Origin: Allobosea sp. Root483D1
GTDB lineage: Bacteria > Pseudomonadota > Alphaproteobacteria > Rhizobiales > Beijerinckiaceae
DNA length: 64,000 nucleotides
Direction of reading: 5' to 3'
Assembly: GCF_001429505.1 (NCBI RefSeq)
Contig: NZ_LMJW01000001.1
Coordinates: 1,180,606-1,244,605, forward strand
Shown here: positions 17,685 to 24,158 of the stretch, piece after piece
How positions within the stretch are numbered: the first letter of the stretch is position 1
How the letters are laid out: the number at the start of each line of letters is the position of its first letter
Notes under the pieces: model-generated
What the model was told of the DNA's origin: nothing
Database searches by the model: none
The model's input: only the letters and a program-made list of their open reading frames with translations
Translations under genes and position numbers: made by a program

Positions 17685-19313
17685 TCACAGGGCGACCGCG
17701 GCCACCTTCGGTCGATCCGGCAGGGCGGGAAAGGCTGCGGATTGAGCCTCGGCAAGATTGTCGATCTGCCGCTGCAACTGGGCGATGACATGCCGCGAGA
17801 ACGGGCCGAGATGCAGATAGAGCGCGACCATCATGAGCACATAGGGCAGCGCCTGACGATTATGGACGAGGCAGTCGAGCACCGTCCTCCAGAATTCGCG
17901 CCGCACATCCCCCTTCGCGACCGTCATGGACCAGAACAGGCGCCAGGACGATTTCAGCTCCTGCCACTCCATCGACCGGGGCAATTCCAGCCGGCGATTT
18001 GTACAATCGAGCATCCGCCCGACCCGCCGAACGCGGCCGAAGAAGGCGCTGGGCGCGTACACGGCTTCCAGGACCGCCTTGTAGTCCGACAGAATGGCGC
18101 GACGCGCGCGGCTGGTCACGAAGTTGAGGCCAGCAGTGCATTGGTCGCCCAGCCCCTGCGAACGATCGGCATCATCCGGAAGGGTCAGGCGGCCTTCGCG
18201 GTCGAGGCGCCGCGTCAGCTGGGTGTTTGGCAAGGCATAGAGCAGGCCGACCATGCAGACCGGGATCGCGGTATCCTCGATGCAGTCGATCATGCCGCGT
18301 GCGACGCTGCCTTTTTCACTGTCGAAACCCAGGATGAAACCGGCGTTCACGAACAGCCCTGCCCGGTAGATCTTGTGGACGCTCTCCTCCAGGCTGCGGC
18401 GGGTGTTCTGCTTCTTTTGCGTTGAGATCAGCGTATCGGCGTCCGGGCTTTCGATGCCGACAAAAATCGTGAAGAAATTGGCCTCGCTCATGGCCTGCAT
18501 CAAAGCGGGATCATCGGCAAGATTGATCGAGGCCTCAGTCGAGAATTCGAACGGGGAGTTTTTCTCCCTCATCCAGTCAGCGAGAGCCGGCAGGAATAGC
18601 CTGAGTGCTTTCTTGTTGCCGATCAGGTTGTCGTCGACGAAATCGACATGGCCGCGATAGCCGAGCGCATACAGGGCATCCAGCTCCGCCATGACCTGGG
18701 CGTTGGTCTTGGTGCGCGGCACGCGTCCATAGAGCTCGATGATGTCGCAGAACTCGCAATTGAACGGACAGCCGCGCGAGAACTGCACGCCGACATGCAG
18801 ATAGTTCCTGAAGGTGAGAAGGTCGAACCGCGGCGTCGGGCTCTTGGTGACGTCGGTCTTGCCCATCTCGGCGCGAAACACACCGCTCGTCGCACCGCCC
18901 GTCCAGGCGGCGATGAAATCGGTCATGATCTCCTCGGCCTCCCCAAGCACCCGAAAGTCCGCCCGGGCGTAAATATCCGGCGTGGAGGTCGCATCAGGGC
19001 CGCCGACCACAACGGGCTTGCCGCGCGATCGGCACATCTCGATGACCGCCAGCGTGCCGTCCTGCTGCGGCAGCATGCCGCCGGTCATGACGAGGTCGGC
19101 CCAGTCGAGATCCTGTGCGCCGAGCTCCTCGGTGTTCAGGTCGACAAGGCGGACATCCCATGTCGTGGGGAGCAGGGCGGCGACCGTGATCAATCCCAGC
19201 GGAGCGGCAGGGTGCCGGGCTCCGGCGAGCGCGCAGGTCGCCTTGTAGTTCCAGAATGAGTTGGCGTTGAAGGCCGGGTAGATCATCAAGACCCGATTGC
19301 GGGCGGTTCGCAT
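17685..19313 (-). CDS. B12-binding-domain radical SAM protein (DUF4070-type C-terminus)
   Basis: The protein has 542 residues from the ATG at 19313, chosen for AGAAGGAG just upstream. An ATG at 19361 would add 16 residues. The N-terminal cobalamin-binding-like Rossmann domain covers about 1-150 (APLGLITVAALLPTTWDVRLVDLN, VVVGGPDAT). The radical SAM core begins at GCPFNCEFCDI with Cys182, Cys186 and Cys189 as the 4Fe-4S ligands. The C-terminal 150 residues fit DUF4070, with a late hydrophobic helix (LPYVLMMVALYLHLG). The reaction and substrate are unknown. The gene is isolated, with a palindromic repeat downstream and about 0.7 kb of non-coding DNA upstream. Confidence 0.88.
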   Translation of the reverse strand: MRTARNRVLMIYPAFNANSFWNYKATCALAGARHPAAPLGLITVAALLPTTWDVRLVDLNTEELGAQDLDWADLVMTGGMLPQQDGTLAVIEMCRSRGKPVVVGGPDATSTPDIYARADFRVLGEAEEIMTDFIAAWTGGATSGVFRAEMGKTDVTKSPTPRFDLLTFRNYLHVGVQFSRGCPFNCEFCDIIELYGRVPRTKTNAQVMAELDALYALGYRGHVDFVDDNLIGNKKALRLFLPALADWMREKNSPFEFSTEASINLADDPALMQAMSEANFFTIFVGIESPDADTLISTQKKQNTRRSLEESVHKIYRAGLFVNAGFILGFDSEKGSVARGMIDCIEDTAIPVCMVGLLYALPNTQLTRRLDREGRLTLPDDADRSQGLGDQCTAGLNFVTSRARRAILSDYKAVLEAVYAPSAFFGRVRRVGRMLDCTNRRLELPRSMEWQELKSSWRLFWSMTVAKGDVRREFWRTVLDCLVHNRQALPYVLMMVALYLHLGPFSRHVIAQLQRQIDNLAEAQSAAFPALPDRPKVAAVAL

Positions 19314-20022
19314 GCCGGCTCCTTCTCTGTGCAGCGCAAGACGGTGCGCGGCCGATGACATCGAAGACGCAGGCGCTCGGTCGCGCCGAAGAGCTTGAAG
19401 GACCCCGGGCCGGGTCGATTTATCGATCTAGCGGGATGGAATTCAGACCGTGCCCACCCGGCATTTGCGGATTGCCCGCAAGCCGGCTCCCCAGCTTCCG
19501 AGGACACGCATGGCAAGGGCCATGCCAGACACATCGAGCTTCACGGAGCGCGGGCTGGACGGGGCTGATGCCGCCTCGCAGCGAAAATACGGCCCGGCTG
19601 TTGCACGAAAATGCGGGGGAGCCTCCAGAAACTGGAGCCGTGCTCGGTTTCGGTCAGGGGCAAGTTCGACTGGTGGAGACCCGAGCTCAGGTCGGTAAGC
19701 GGTCCGGCTTCAACCGGACGGGCCACGCCTGTGCCTTGGAGGCGGCAGTTTGGGCAAAAACCTGCTCACCTAACACTGCGAGAGCCGCGCAGGGTAACAA
19801 TGCGCGCGAAAAGCGCATGCCGAGCCCGTGTTTAGGCCGGGCTATTGAATCCGCCAGGCTCCGGGAGGCTGACGGACTGCGCGATCGCGCGCCTTCGACC
19901 GGAACGAACCCGAACGCTGGAGGGCTAAAGGGACGGCCAGCAACCGTGGGCCATCCCAGCGCGTCATGGGAGCGGCCGAAGACAAGCCTGGGTCTTCGGC
20001 CTGCTCCGGGATGACGAGCTGC
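19314..20022. other. Gene-poor 0.7-kb region with two hairpins
   Basis: I find no credible gene here: open frames are short or lack starts and family character. GCATGGC (19508-19514) pairs with GCCATGC (19519-19525). A long imperfect hairpin spans 19962-20016, with GCCGAAGAC/GTCTTCGGC as core stem and CGTCAT/ATGACG at its ends, just after the cobW stop. The latter may be the cobW terminator or a dispersed palindrome. Confidence 0.6.
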
Positions 20023-20985
20023 TCAGGCCGCGCAGGCCATGAACCCCTTGCGCAACGCCGCCTCGTCGAGATCGCGGCCGATGAAGACCAGGCGCGAATT
20101 GCGCTCCTCTCCAGCCTTCCAGTCACGCTGCAGGTCACCGTCGAGGATCATGTGCACCCCCTGGAAGACGAAGCGGCGCGGCTCGTCCTTGAAGGCGAGG
20201 ATGCCCTTGGAGCGCAGGATGTTCGGGCCCTGCACCTGGCTGATATCGTTGATCCACGGCATGAATTTCTCGGGATCGACATCGCCGGGAAGCGTGAACG
20301 ACATCGAGCGGATCTCGTCCGAATGATGATGGTGGTGGCCGGCCTCGAGGAAGTCGGGCTCGATGTCGAGGATGCGGTCGAGATCGAAGGCGTTTCGGTC
20401 GAGCAGCTCGGCGATCGGCAGCTCGCAGCGCGTCGTCTTGTGCAGCTTGGCATAGGGGTTGATCGCGCGGATCGTCGCCTCGACCTCGGCGAGTTCCCCG
20501 GGCGTCACCAGGTCGGTCTTGTTCAGGATGATCACGTCGGCGAAGGCGATCTGGTTCTTCGCTTCCGGCGCGTCCTTGAGGCGGTCCTTCAGCCACTTCG
20601 CATCGGTGACGGTCACGACCGCGTCGAGCTTGGTGGCGTCGCCGACATCCTGGTCGACGAAGAAGGTCTGGGCGACCGGGGCGGGATCGGCGAGGCCGGT
20701 GGTCTCGACGATGATGGCGTCGAACTTGCCCTTGCGCTTCATCAGCCCGTCGAGGATGCGGATCAGATCGCCACGCACGGTGCAGCAGATGCAGCCATTG
20801 TTCATCTCGAACACTTCCTCGTCGGCGCCGACGACGAGGTCGCCATCGATGCCGGTCTCGCCGAACTCGTTGACGATCACGGCGAATTTCTTGCCGTGGT
20901 CCTCGGTGAGGATGCGGTTGAGGAGCGTGGTCTTGCCGGCGCCCAGATAGCCGGTGAGCACCGTGACGGGAATCTTCTCGGACAT
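20023..20985 (-). CDS. CobW/COG0523-family GTPase, probable zinc metallochaperone
   Basis: The 320-residue protein has Walker A GYLGAGKTTLL (residues 12-22) and the metal-binding GCICC motif (64-68) typical of COG0523. NKTD lies in the G4 position. A His-rich insert AGHHHHHSDE in the middle is followed by the CobW C-terminal domain (about 225-318). These GTPases deliver metal, often zinc under starvation, to client enzymes. It directly follows a znuA-like gene, supporting zinc rather than cobalamin function. Confidence 0.9.
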   Translation of the reverse strand: MSEKIPVTVLTGYLGAGKTTLLNRILTEDHGKKFAVIVNEFGETGIDGDLVVGADEEVFEMNNGCICCTVRGDLIRILDGLMKRKGKFDAIIVETTGLADPAPVAQTFFVDQDVGDATKLDAVVTVTDAKWLKDRLKDAPEAKNQIAFADVIILNKTDLVTPGELAEVEATIRAINPYAKLHKTTRCELPIAELLDRNAFDLDRILDIEPDFLEAGHHHHHSDEIRSMSFTLPGDVDPEKFMPWINDISQVQGPNILRSKGILAFKDEPRRFVFQGVHMILDGDLQRDWKAGEERNSRLVFIGRDLDEAALRKGFMACAA

Positions 20986-21028: not shown

Positions 21029-21937
21029 TCAGGCCGGGCCGGCGACGAGCGCCTTCTCGATCTGGCTTATATTGTGTTTCATCATCGCGATGTAAGTCCC
21101 GGCCGGACCATCAGCGGCCGAAAGCGCATCCGAATAGAGCCGCCCGCCGATCTTCGCCCCGCTCTCCCTGGCGATCTGCTCGGCGAGGCGCGGATTGGTG
21201 ATGTTTTCGAGGAAGACGGCCGGCACCTTCTCCGCCTTGATCTGGCGGATGATGCGGGCGACGTCCTTGGCCGAGGCCTCGGCCTCGGTCGAGACGCCCT
21301 GCGGTGCGATGAATGCGACGCCATAGGCTTTGACGAAGTAGCCGAAGGCATCGTGCGAGGTGATCGCCTTGCGCCGGTCGGCGGGGATGCGCGCGACTGT
21401 CGCCTTGATCTCGCTTTCCAACCCATCGAGCTTGGCGAGATAAGCGGTGGCATTGGCCTCATAGGCCGCCTTGCCAGCCGAATCAGCCGCGATCAGCGCA
21501 TCCCGGACATTGCCGACATAGAGCCTGGCATTGGCAACGCTCTGCCAGGCATGCGGGTCCTCGCCGCCATGGCCATGACCGTGATCGTCGGCCAGCTTGA
21601 GCGGGGTGATGCCGGTGGTCGCGGTGGCGATCGTCGCCTTGGTGCCCGACGACTTGATCAGCCGGGTCAGCCAACCCTCGAACTTCAGCCCGTTGACGAC
21701 GACGAGCTTGGCGCCTGCCACCGTCTTGGCGTCGGCCGGCGTCGGCGAATAGACATGCGCGTCGCCATCGGGCCCGACCAGCAGCGTCACCGCGACCCGC
21801 TCGCCACCGATCTCGCGCACGAAATCTCCGAGGATCGAAAAGCTCGCGACGACGGAGAGCTTCTCCTGGGCAAAAGCCGGCAGCGGCAGGACGGCGCCGG
21901 CGGCAAGGCCAAGGACGACGGAGCGGCGGTTCAGCAT
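21029..21937 (-). CDS. znuA: Periplasmic zinc-binding protein, ZnuA-like
   Basis: The 302-residue cluster A-I binding protein has a signal peptide (residues 1-23). His61 lies in DGDAHVYSPTPADA, and a His-rich loop DDHGHGHGG (117-125) precedes His129 in EDPHAW. A further ligand is in ITSHDAFGYF. A His-rich loop is typical of zinc rather than manganese members. It lies downstream of the permease gene and has its own Zur-like site in the 36-bp gap. Confidence 0.85.
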   Translation of the reverse strand: MLNRRSVVLGLAAGAVLPLPAFAQEKLSVVASFSILGDFVREIGGERVAVTLLVGPDGDAHVYSPTPADAKTVAGAKLVVVNGLKFEGWLTRLIKSSGTKATIATATTGITPLKLADDHGHGHGGEDPHAWQSVANARLYVGNVRDALIAADSAGKAAYEANATAYLAKLDGLESEIKATVARIPADRRKAITSHDAFGYFVKAYGVAFIAPQGVSTEAEASAKDVARIIRQIKAEKVPAVFLENITNPRLAEQIARESGAKIGGRLYSDALSAADGPAGTYIAMMKHNISQIEKALVAGPA

Positions 21938-21949
21938 GGCATCTCTCGC

Positions 21950-21974
21950 GTTATATGAAACACTATAACATAAC
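21950..21974 (-). promoter_or_regulatory. Zur-like operator before znuA
   Basis: On the minus strand GTTATGTTATAGTGTTTC (21957-21974) matches 12 of 18 positions of the Agrobacterium Zur operator as I recall it (GATATGTTATTACATTAC). GTTATA (21950-21955) and TATAAC (21964-21969) also form an inverted repeat. Its place between znuB and znuA implies a separate, zinc-regulated promoter for znuA. Confidence 0.5.
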
Positions 21975-22849
21975 TAACGCTGGAGATGGGCCTTCGGCAA
22001 GAGGCGTCGCGCAAGTCCGCCCTGCGATCCCAGCAGGAGCGAGCCGAGATAGAGCGAGCCGGCCGAGAGAATGATCGCCGGCCCGGCCGGGAGATTGCTG
22101 CCGGCGGCATAGGAGGCGACGAGGCCGATATAGCCGGACGCCATGCCGAAGCCGGAGGCGAGCAGGATCAGCCGGGTGATGTCGGCGGTCCAGAACCGTG
22201 CTGCTGCGGCCGGCAGCATCATCAGTCCGACTGCGAGCAGCGTGCCGAGCGCGTGGAATCCGGCGACGAGGTTGAGCACGACGAGCCCGAGGAAGGTCAG
22301 GTGGACGACGCCGCCGGAGCGGCTGACCGAACGCAGGAAGCCGGGATCGACGCATTCGAGCACGAGCGGGCGGTAGACCAGCGCCAGAATGGTCAGCGTC
22401 AAGCTGGCGACTCCGGAGAGGAGCACGAGCACATCGTCGTCGAGCGCCAGCACGTTGCCGAACAGCACATGGAAGAGATCGACAGCCGAGCCACGCAGCG
22501 AGACCAGTGTGACGCCGAGCGCCAGCGAAATCAGGTAAAAGGCGGCGAGCGAAGCGTCTTCCTTGAGCACGGTCAGGCGGGCGACAGCGCCGGCGGCGAG
22601 TGCGACGGCGAAGCCGGCCACGAGCCCACCCAGCGTCATCGCCGGCAGCGAAAAGCCGGCGACGAGATAGCCGAGCGCGGCACCCGGCAAGATCGCATGC
22701 GCCATGGCATCGCCGGTCAGGCTCATCCGCCGCAGCATCAGGAAGACGCCGATAGGTGCGCCGGAGACCGACAATGCCATCACGCCAACCAGCGCCCGGC
22801 GCATGAAGTCGAATTCGGCGAAGGGGCCGATCAGGAGGTCATAGAGCAT
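21974..22849 (-). CDS. znuB: Zinc ABC transporter permease, ZnuB-like
   Basis: The 291-residue polytopic protein of the ABC-3 family has about eight membrane helices. Characteristic blocks are MALSVSGAPIGVFLMLRRMSLTGDAMAHAILPGAALGYL near the start and LGTLLAVGLMMLPAAAARF near the end. It carries metal from the ZnuA-like protein into the cytoplasm. It follows the ATPase gene by 24 bases in the same operon. Confidence 0.88.
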   Translation of the reverse strand: MLYDLLIGPFAEFDFMRRALVGVMALSVSGAPIGVFLMLRRMSLTGDAMAHAILPGAALGYLVAGFSLPAMTLGGLVAGFAVALAAGAVARLTVLKEDASLAAFYLISLALGVTLVSLRGSAVDLFHVLFGNVLALDDDVLVLLSGVASLTLTILALVYRPLVLECVDPGFLRSVSRSGGVVHLTFLGLVVLNLVAGFHALGTLLAVGLMMLPAAAARFWTADITRLILLASGFGMASGYIGLVASYAAGSNLPAGPAIILSAGSLYLGSLLLGSQGGLARRLLPKAHLQR

Positions 22850-22873: not shown

Positions 22874-23620
22874 TCAGGCGGCGCAGGGCGCAGCATGGCT
22901 GTCGAAAGCTTCGACCATGCGCCGCGCCTTGAGCAAATTACTTGCCGTCAGCACCTCGCCGGTCTCGCCCCAGGCGATCGCCTCGCGCGCCAGCAGCAGC
23001 GTCTGCGGGAAGGCGCGTTTCACCGTCTCGATGTCGTGCAGCACCGCGACGACGGTGCGGTTCTCGCCATGCCAACGCTGGACCAGCGCCAGCAGGTCGG
23101 CGCTGGTGCGGGCATCGATCGCGGTGAACGGCTCGTCAAGCAGGATGATGTCGGCATCCTGCAGCAGGAGCCGGGCGAACAGCGCCCGCTGCATCTGCCC
23201 GCCCGAGAGCGTGCCGATGCTGCGGCCCTCGAAGCCGGTGAGGCCGACCGCGGCGATCGCCGCCTCGATCTTACTGCGCTGACCGAAGCCGATCCGGCCG
23301 AAGATGCCGGCTGTGCCCCACAAGCCCATGGCGACAAGATCATAGACATGGATCGGGAAGGAGCGGTCGAGCTCGGCCGATTGCGGGAGATAGGCGAGGC
23401 GCTTGCCCTTGGCGAGCGTCACCGTGCCGTCGAGCGGCGAAAGCGCTCCGGCGATGGCCTTGAGCAAGGTCGACTTGCCGGCACCGTTCGGCCCGACGAT
23501 CGCGATCAGGCTGCCCGGCGCGATTTCGCCCGAGAGATGATGCACCGCCGGATGGCGGTCATAGCCGAGCGTCAGATCGCTGAAACGGATGGCGGGCATG
23601 GGTTTGGTACTCTTGTTCAC
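22874..23620 (-). CDS. znuC: Zinc ABC transporter ATP-binding protein, ZnuC-like
   Basis: The protein has 248 residues from the GTG at 23620. The ATG at 23599 is an equally possible start, and a longer frame from 23671 would overlap the small upstream gene. Walker A is GPNGAGKSTLLKAI, the signature LSGGQMQRALFARLL and Walker B IILLDEPF, followed by VLHDIETV. It energises the ZnuB channel. It lies 13 bases after a small His-rich membrane ORF. Confidence 0.87.
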   Translation of the reverse strand: MNKSTKPMPAIRFSDLTLGYDRHPAVHHLSGEIAPGSLIAIVGPNGAGKSTLLKAIAGALSPLDGTVTLAKGKRLAYLPQSAELDRSFPIHVYDLVAMGLWGTAGIFGRIGFGQRSKIEAAIAAVGLTGFEGRSIGTLSGGQMQRALFARLLLQDADIILLDEPFTAIDARTSADLLALVQRWHGENRTVVAVLHDIETVKRAFPQTLLLAREAIAWGETGEVLTASNLLKARRMVEAFDSHAAPCAA

Positions 23621-23633
23621 GCCAGATTCTTCA

Positions 23634-23780
23634 TCACACAATGACGGTGAAGGTCGCCGCCCACAGCACAACGATCACGCCAAGCGCCAGACCGAGCCGT
23701 TGCCCGGCAGAGAGCCGCAGCAGCGACCAGCCGGGGGCCTCGGAGACCGCATGGCGGTGATGGGCATGATCATGGGCCAT
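23634..23780 (-). CDS. Small His-rich single-pass membrane protein heading the zinc operon
   Basis: The frame encodes 48 residues from the ATG at 23780. The N-terminus MAHDHAHHRHAVSEA has five His in ten residues. One hydrophobic helix then runs LGLALGVIVVLWAATFTVIV to the end. It precedes znuC by 13 bases and follows a Zur-like sequence, so it should be zinc-regulated. Starts further upstream (MRNIISFD) would run through the putative Zur site. No family name comes to mind. The His cluster suggests a metal-binding accessory of the importer, which is inference. Confidence 0.6.
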   Translation of the reverse strand: MAHDHAHHRHAVSEAPGWSLLRLSAGQRLGLALGVIVVLWAATFTVIV

Positions 23781-23783
23781 ATC

Positions 23784-23800
23784 GAATGATATAATGTTAC
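23784..23800. promoter_or_regulatory. Zur-like site before the small His-rich gene and znuCB
   Basis: GAATGATATAATGTTAC is an imperfect palindrome, AT-rich in a high-GC setting. Its minus-strand form GTAACATTATATCATTC matches about 11 of 18 positions of the recalled Agrobacterium Zur operator. It touches the start of the small gene and could also control the divergent ORF. Confidence 0.42.
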
Positions 23801-23894
23801 GCATGGCCGCGAGCAAGCACGATGACGCTTGTCACCAGTGCCGAAGCGCGTCGATATCCATTCTCGCCCACTGCAGCCGGATGGGAGTGCATGC

Positions 23895-24158
23895 GTGAGT
23901 ACCGAGCGGGTGACCTTCAAAGCGATACGCGACGGTGTCGCGGCCGAGATTCCGGCCGATGCGATCGAGGTCGTCCTGCCTGACGGCCTCAGCTTCCGGA
24001 TCATGGCCTTTGCCGGCCGCAACGACTCCGCGACCCTGCACATGCCAGCCGACAATCCTGAAGCCCCGAGCTTCGACGTGTTCTGCGTCGAGCCCGGCGC
24101 AGCCAACACGCTGTTCATCTCCGTCGACCGGGTGCAGAAGCGCCAGATCGAGGGGTAG
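23895..24158 (+). CDS. Small hypothetical protein divergent from the zinc operon
   Basis: The protein has 87 residues from the GTG at 23895 (VSTERVTFKAIRDGV). A TTG at 23829 would add 22 residues. It is soluble and predicted mostly beta (IEVVLPDGLSFRIMAFAGR, SFDVFCVEPGAANTLFISVDRV), with no signal or cysteine pair. I do not recognise it. It shares the intergenic region with the Zur-like site, so zinc regulation is possible. Coding character is moderate. Confidence 0.5.
   Translation: MSTERVTFKAIRDGVAAEIPADAIEVVLPDGLSFRIMAFAGRNDSATLHMPADNPEAPSFDVFCVEPGAANTLFISVDRVQKRQIEG

Follow-up and report, generated by a model that had tools for sequence, protein, structure and literature searches.

The small ORF and the importer operon

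The window analyzed here, a 64,000-nt stretch of the genome of Allobosea sp. Root483D1 (contig NZ_LMJW01000001.1, positions 1,180,606 to 1,244,605), contains a set of genes for zinc import on a single strand, in the order small ORF, ABC ATPase, permease, zinc-binding protein and CobW GTPase. These genes and the elements preceding them are as follows, in coordinates of the window:

23814..23816, minus strand: TTG, probably part of a −35 box, lying 34–36 nt ahead of the ATG of the small ORF; found unchanged in 49 of 55 Bosea-type copies
23785..23800, minus strand: Zur-like site GTAACATTATATCATT, a candidate by sequence match only, which overlaps the −10 box
23788..23793, minus strand: TATATC, probable −10 box, with a 17-nt spacer to the −35 box; exact at its place in 48 of 55 copies
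23634..23780, minus strand: small ORF, 48 aa, with a His head (residues 1–15) and a single helix (residues 16–47)
22874..23599, minus strand: aztA, ATPase (NCBIfam AztA, 235.4 bits; cut-off 220)
21974..22849, minus strand: aztB-like permease gene (Pfam ABC-3; NCBIfam AztB, 264.8 bits, below the cut-off of 280)
21029..21937, minus strand: aztC-like gene for a zinc-binding protein (Pfam ZnuA; NCBIfam AztC, 331.8, below the cut-off of 350)
20023..20985, minus strand: gene for a CobW-type GTPase with an HHHHH run (Pfam cobW and CobW_C); last gene of the probable operon

Translation of the minus strand from 23780 to 23634 yields MAHDHAHHRHAVSEAPGWSLLRLSAGQRLGLALGVIVVLWAATFTVIV, followed by a stop codon; the deduced product of 48 aa contains His at residues 3, 5, 7, 8 and 10, no Cys, and one hydrophobic helix that runs to the C-terminal end. 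The first-pass annotation had described a 48-codon ORF with five His in its first ten residues and one membrane helix, preceded by a Zur-like site, and we found both the ORF and, at 23785–23800, the AT-rich sequence GTAACATTATATCATT. It had also placed the ORF before znuC. The ORF does lie ahead of a zinc importer ATPase gene, with 34 nt separating it from the ATG at 23599, but the product of this gene scores above the curated AztA cut-off, indicating that the gene is aztA rather than znuC. Since the AztB and AztC matches fall slightly under their respective cut-offs, we refer to the importer as Azt-type, and not as AztABC proper.

The window operon lacks aztD, and the CobW gene stands after aztC instead; in the same genome, a weak match to AztD (1.6e-44, below the cut-off) was found on a different contig (C18) from that of the operon. 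The ABC-3 permease family has three members in the whole genome, of which that of the window is the only lone one, the two others being adjacent on contig C20 (642913–644534) as tandem genes of a second metal importer. Beyond the cobW gene, the window also encodes a radical SAM protein with B12-binding and DUF4070 domains (17685–19361, minus strand). A frame of 109 aa on the plus strand (23829–24158), with no Pfam match and only a weak NCBIfam match (0.19), diverges from the small ORF, and the Zur-like site lies between the two.

Conservation of the small ORF and of its helix core

Matches to the small ORF at E ≤ 0.01 were obtained in 58 of 101 genomes, comprising 56 of the 60 genomes from the same genus, the own genome and one genome from another family (G091), and the other 43 genomes contained no match at this threshold. 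In three of the 56 (G041, G047 and G054), the match was limited to the core, without a His head. The corresponding loci (L070, L068 and L067, respectively) contain a diverged aztA, with 58–60% identity, and are placed in the AztA tree (see below) beside the clade lacking the ORF. Among eight named close matches, the title reads Bosea for five loci, and one, a Rhodobium match (L042) running antisense to another ATPase gene, was considered a chance match; it was excluded from the Bosea-type set, which comprises 61 copies, 55 of them distinct, and was kept as a negative among the 233 loci described below and as a long branch in the tree. A second match in genome G014 sits within a frame of 729 aa.

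The 55 distinct Bosea-type copies start with ATG in 54 cases and with GTG in one. Codon-position variability in their core is 0.165, 0.111 and 0.298 for the first, second and third positions, respectively, being highest at the third, and the uncorrected pN/pS is 0.395 for the core and 0.589 for the head; over 322 close pairs, it is 0.516. Conservation among genomes and a coding pattern of change demonstrate, at the level of sequence comparison, that the small ORF is a real gene and not a chance frame. Lack of conservation, or rates typical of non-coding DNA, had been named by the first-pass annotation as grounds to discard it; we found instead a conserved gene that varies like coding DNA.

The conserved core follows the pattern SLLRxSxxxRL..LW. 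The Arg and Trp of this core have a spacing of exactly 12 residues in every one of the 143 copies that are not of the Bosea type, although the rule used for their identification (see below) allowed 8–14; this rule was devised after viewing examples and required both residues, so that their spacing alone is an independent observation and their invariance in alignment A2 is a product of how the copies were selected. Among the neighbouring positions in the 143 copies, −9 is Ser in 74% and −7 is Leu in 71%, −4 is either Ser (58%) or Gly (32%), +1 is Leu (82%), +4 is Ala (75%), +17 is Trp (75%) and +18 is Ala (73%), and the comparison demonstrates, for these sequences, a constraint on the one-helix core. 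The distinct Bosea-type copies have two to six His before the core PG, with at least four in 40 of 55. Outside this type, 54 of 143 copies have at least four His within the 37 residues preceding the core, a segment that may take in codons before the true start. As judged from these copies, the helix core defines the family, the His head being optional; as many members have no such head, a function common to all of them cannot be zinc binding. The earlier designation as a His-rich membrane protein was thus right in pointing to a real short membrane gene, but the defining part is the core and not the head.

The small ORF is linked to aztA

A profile search with 22 sequences (E ≤ 0.01) produced matches in 105 of 397 genomes of the order, belonging to 45 of 141 genera, and in 25 of 385 genomes of the class, with some of the weak matches occurring by chance. 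The 28 new loci from the order search (L071–L098) all have aztA adjoining. In the class search, aztA was found beside the match in 16 of 26 new loci; the ten others (L111, L112 and L116–L123) are weak matches, with E from 0.001 to 0.009 and no adjacent aztA, and were dismissed as due to chance.

Homologues of AztA (E ≤ 1e-55) were found in 262 of 397 genomes of the order, 111 of 372 of the class and 82 of 299 of the phylum. Upstream of aztA-like genes, the ORF was identified by a fixed rule, comprising a stop near the aztA start, a hydrophobic segment, and an Arg 8–14 before a Trp near the end. From 272 loci, 258 had an aztA-like match, and 25 of these were removed as duplicates or for having no upstream DNA; in the resulting 233 distinct loci, the rule identified the ORF in 198 and did not in 35. 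As controls, the same rule identified a frame in 2 of 985 windows inside aztA and in none of 1187 antisense windows. The ORF was present in 126 of 126 loci with at least 62% identity to the window AztA, 56 of 72 at 56–61%, 13 of 17 at 52–55%, 3 of 5 at 48–51% and none of 13 below 48%, the last group including the chance locus L042. A later locus from Neorhizobium (L281), with an AztA of 47.8% identity, does carry the ORF.

These frequencies depended on the source of the loci. The ORF was present in 59 of 60 (L001–L070) and 41 of 41 (L071–L124) loci in two sets that were mostly found via the small protein and are not independent. Among the loci returned by AztA, it was found in 11 of 28 from the order, a set rich in members of the ORF-less clade, 21 of 24 from the class and 8 of 10 from the phylum. 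Loci that we picked from the AztA order list, chosen after the order profile results, had the ORF in 50 of 60 cases, and those from plasmids in 8 of 10. Overall, it was present in 87 of the 119 loci reached only through AztA. Diverged forms of the ORF precede aztA across the Alphaproteobacteria and, outside this class, four of the five loci examined contain it (L247, L251, L252 and L253; not L257). These comparisons demonstrate, as far as gene context goes, that the ORF is linked to aztA in a broad set of genomes. In L239 (G467), the aztA-like gene is preceded by a one-helix frame whose Arg and Trp are too far apart for the rule, which could be a diverged member.

We also considered that the small protein could be fused to AztA. 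Eight loci have an in-frame upstream hydrophobic stretch, none of them carrying the motif, and the N-terminal extension of AztA from a Bradyrhizobium plasmid is likewise without it; fusion was therefore rejected.

Annotation in databases and literature

From 39 plasmid records with an aztA-like gene, we examined 17. The ORF frame was found in ten, and not in those from Bradyrhizobium, Paracoccus, Klebsiella, Devosia, Shinella, Phyllobacterium and Sinorhizobium. Four of the ten list it as a hypothetical protein (Paracoccaceae La 6, Skermanella rosea, S. mucosa and Thioclava GXIMD2076), and three annotate aztA but not the ORF (Thioclava GXIMD4216, Bartonella HY038 and Neorhizobium NCHU2750); the gene table of a Gemmobacter plasmid includes neither, and two further plasmids have no gene table there. 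The plasmid gene table describes itself as incomplete. In two public records, the annotated ORF shares 4 nt with aztA, an overlap like that of coupled genes.

At E ≤ 0.1, no model among 24736 from Pfam and 18950 from NCBIfam, small membrane families such as KdpF, CbtB and YshB included, had matches to more than one of the 55 members scanned, the best single matches being to YshB (0.0041) and DUF4750 (0.0063), and the best match to solved structures (E 0.29) was not credible. Among titles and abstract starts in the open literature, a scope outside which most subscription papers fall, we found no paper describing the small protein, and PMC10797113 does not mention the terms sought. The protein thus appears to belong to no Pfam or NCBIfam family and to be undescribed.

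The ORF was probably lost in the AztABCD-type clade

To follow the ORF along the evolution of the importer, we used an AztA tree of 123 rows, with an arbitrary root and bootstrap values that had not settled. The label "has ORF" changes three times on this tree, versus 23 in shuffles. The 18 rows of one group (100/94), which includes the aztABCD operon of Paracoccus (L272), all lack the ORF; the rows next to it, L152 and then L139 with L155, all have it. This nesting among ORF-bearing rows suggests that the small ORF was probably lost in the AztABCD-type clade, a single loss being the simplest reading, and the fact that this clade works without the small protein indicates that not every Azt importer needs it; some other aztA-like loci, among the 35 of 233 in which the rule did not identify the ORF, do without it as well. 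Several deep rows (L237, L240, L260, L257, L239 and L268) are also ORF-less, which leaves the first gain undated.

AztD was examined as a replacement for the small protein and rejected: it was found in 8 of 17 ORF-less genomes versus 5 of 28 with the ORF, the five including the own genome with its weak match, and in G262 and G391 it adjoins an aztA that has the ORF. In plasmids from Shinella and Phyllobacterium (L277 and L278, respectively), aztD, a Fur-family gene and GTPase genes, including zigA in L277, are divergent from an ORF-less aztA.

Promoter and expression

In relation to the ATG of the small ORF, the TTG and TATATC motifs occupy positions −36 to −34 and −13 to −8, and transcription would be expected to start at or beside this ATG. 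None of the 55 Bosea-type copies contains any of five Shine-Dalgarno-like 4-mers tested between −20 and −4. The mRNA is probably leaderless at the small ORF, and a leaderless small ORF, trpL, is described for S. meliloti (PMC10117765). The sequence GTAACATTATATCATT matches once in the window, versus 0.01 matches expected from shuffles; its 15-base core, with up to two mismatches, has one match in the whole genome, an uninformative result because the reversed control pattern also has one. A similar Zur-like site precedes the Neorhizobium operon (L281). With an mRNA that probably starts at or beside its own ATG and a promoter overlapped by the Zur-like site, the small protein would be expressed along with the importer when zinc is scarce.

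A short ORF placed just ahead of a metal gene, often overlapping aztA or near it and with a promoter at its own ATG, could also be a cis-acting leader, whose translation, through zinc-dependent pausing or coupling alone, would set that of aztA; CutF acts in this way on cutO in Rhodobacter capsulatus (PMC9973294). However, the conserved element here is a membrane helix in which Arg and Trp are fixed, without a C-terminal Pro-rich arrest motif like that of CutF, and the His head is optional; moreover, 17 Bosea-type sequences show no conserved hairpin over the aztA start (15 predicted pairs with one two-sided change). These features make a leader rather unlikely. An RNA switch was rejected, with neither a conserved hairpin nor any Rfam match in the window at the gathering threshold. 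Between the two roles put forward by the first-pass annotation, a helper of the importer is thus plausible and a leader peptide is disfavoured.

A putative accessory subunit of the importer

We propose, with a probability of around 0.6, that the small protein is a translated integral membrane accessory subunit of the Azt-type zinc importer, a function that we infer from sequence. The linkage to the importer expected of an accessory subunit was found in 28 of 28 loci from the order search and in 198 of 233 aztA-like loci. Rather than a standing subunit, the protein might be a regulator of the stability or activity of the importer, resembling in its size and single helix MgtS, MgtU and AcrZ, which regulate other transporters (PMC10710835), and the optional head would agree with this. 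Nevertheless, its fixed place as the first gene of the importer operon, and the fact that the known regulators described there act on other transporter classes, make it unlikely.

The 20 residues ending with the core Arg contain on average 3.1 Lys and Arg, versus 0.12 after the helix, and the N side has more of them than the C side in 198 of 198 copies, with one Arg required by the rule itself. According to the positive-inside rule, the positively charged side of a helix is cytoplasmic, and the His head would therefore be in the cytoplasm. A single-chain AlphaFold2 model, built on eight sequences, displays one helix, at residues 16–47, and a loose head (mean pLDDT 77.9, pTM 0.43). With an inverted topology, a periplasmic His head would feed zinc to AztC or AztB, in line with the His-rich loops known in periplasmic zinc-binding proteins (PMC7731109); with the positive charges on the head side in every copy, we deem this very unlikely. 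Lastly, a chance open frame in GC-rich DNA is hardly credible for this ORF, short as it is and in a region where 10 kb contain 92 frames of 30 aa or more, in view of its conservation, Arg-Trp spacing, rule controls and coding pattern.

As an accessory subunit, the small protein would insert in the membrane with its N-terminus in the cytoplasm, and its helix would lie against the permease AztB, with the S-L-L-R-x-S-xxx-R residues bordering the cytoplasm and the Trp inside the helix, helping to assemble, stabilise or tune the importer. More tentatively, the His-rich head could bind zinc leaving the channel, near the cytoplasmic mouth of the permease, and hand it on to the CobW GTPase, which has its own HHHHH run; alternatively, the head could damp import when zinc is plentiful. 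We put forward as a tentative possibility a wider scenario, in which proteobacterial Azt-type importers would ancestrally carry a one-helix subunit that the AztABCD branch lost, and in many lineages a cytoplasmic His head would take zinc from the exit to the CobW GTPase or close the importer in replete cells.

Our results suggest that a component is missing from the current description of a widespread zinc importer, and that the branch of the AztABCD type is one without this component. The family offers fixed positions for mutation (Arg28, Trp40 and SLLRxS) and makes the handling of zinc at the channel exit testable. It also provides a possible explanation for the stretch between the Zur site and the ATPase start in operons such as zniCBA of R. 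leguminosarum.

Comparison with known systems

The closeness to Paracoccus AztABCD lies in the window AztA, which is above the cut-off, in a permease and a binding protein near theirs, and in a zinc-type operon after a Zur-like site. Unlike in the window, no small ORF precedes aztA in the Paracoccus plasmid operon (L272) or in the rest of its 18-row clade, and aztC is followed by aztD in L272 and by the CobW gene in the window.

KdpF is a small one-helix transporter partner. The window protein resembles KdpF, as well as AcrZ and MgtS (for these two, PMC10710835), in its size, its one helix, and its linkage to or action on a transporter; it differs in having no Pfam or NCBIfam match, in its partner, an ABC zinc importer, and in its His head. 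Like the small ORF, cutF (DUF2946) of R. capsulatus is a short, metal-linked ORF directly ahead of a metal gene in an alphaproteobacterium. However, CutF has a Sec signal, a CxxxC motif and a Pro-rich C-terminus (PMC9973294), whereas the window protein combines a His head with a conserved helix and has no CxxxC, Pro-rich C-terminus or DUF2946 match.

Finally, zniCBA of R. leguminosarum, a name that in C. metallidurans designates an unrelated efflux pump (PMC11647595), is a zinc ABC importer operon whose ATPase gene has a Zur motif 153 bp upstream (PMC12183173), a distance that leaves room for such an ORF. The Neorhizobium zinc/manganese operon (L281) has the small ORF, and our guess is that one also precedes R. 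leguminosarum zniCBA.
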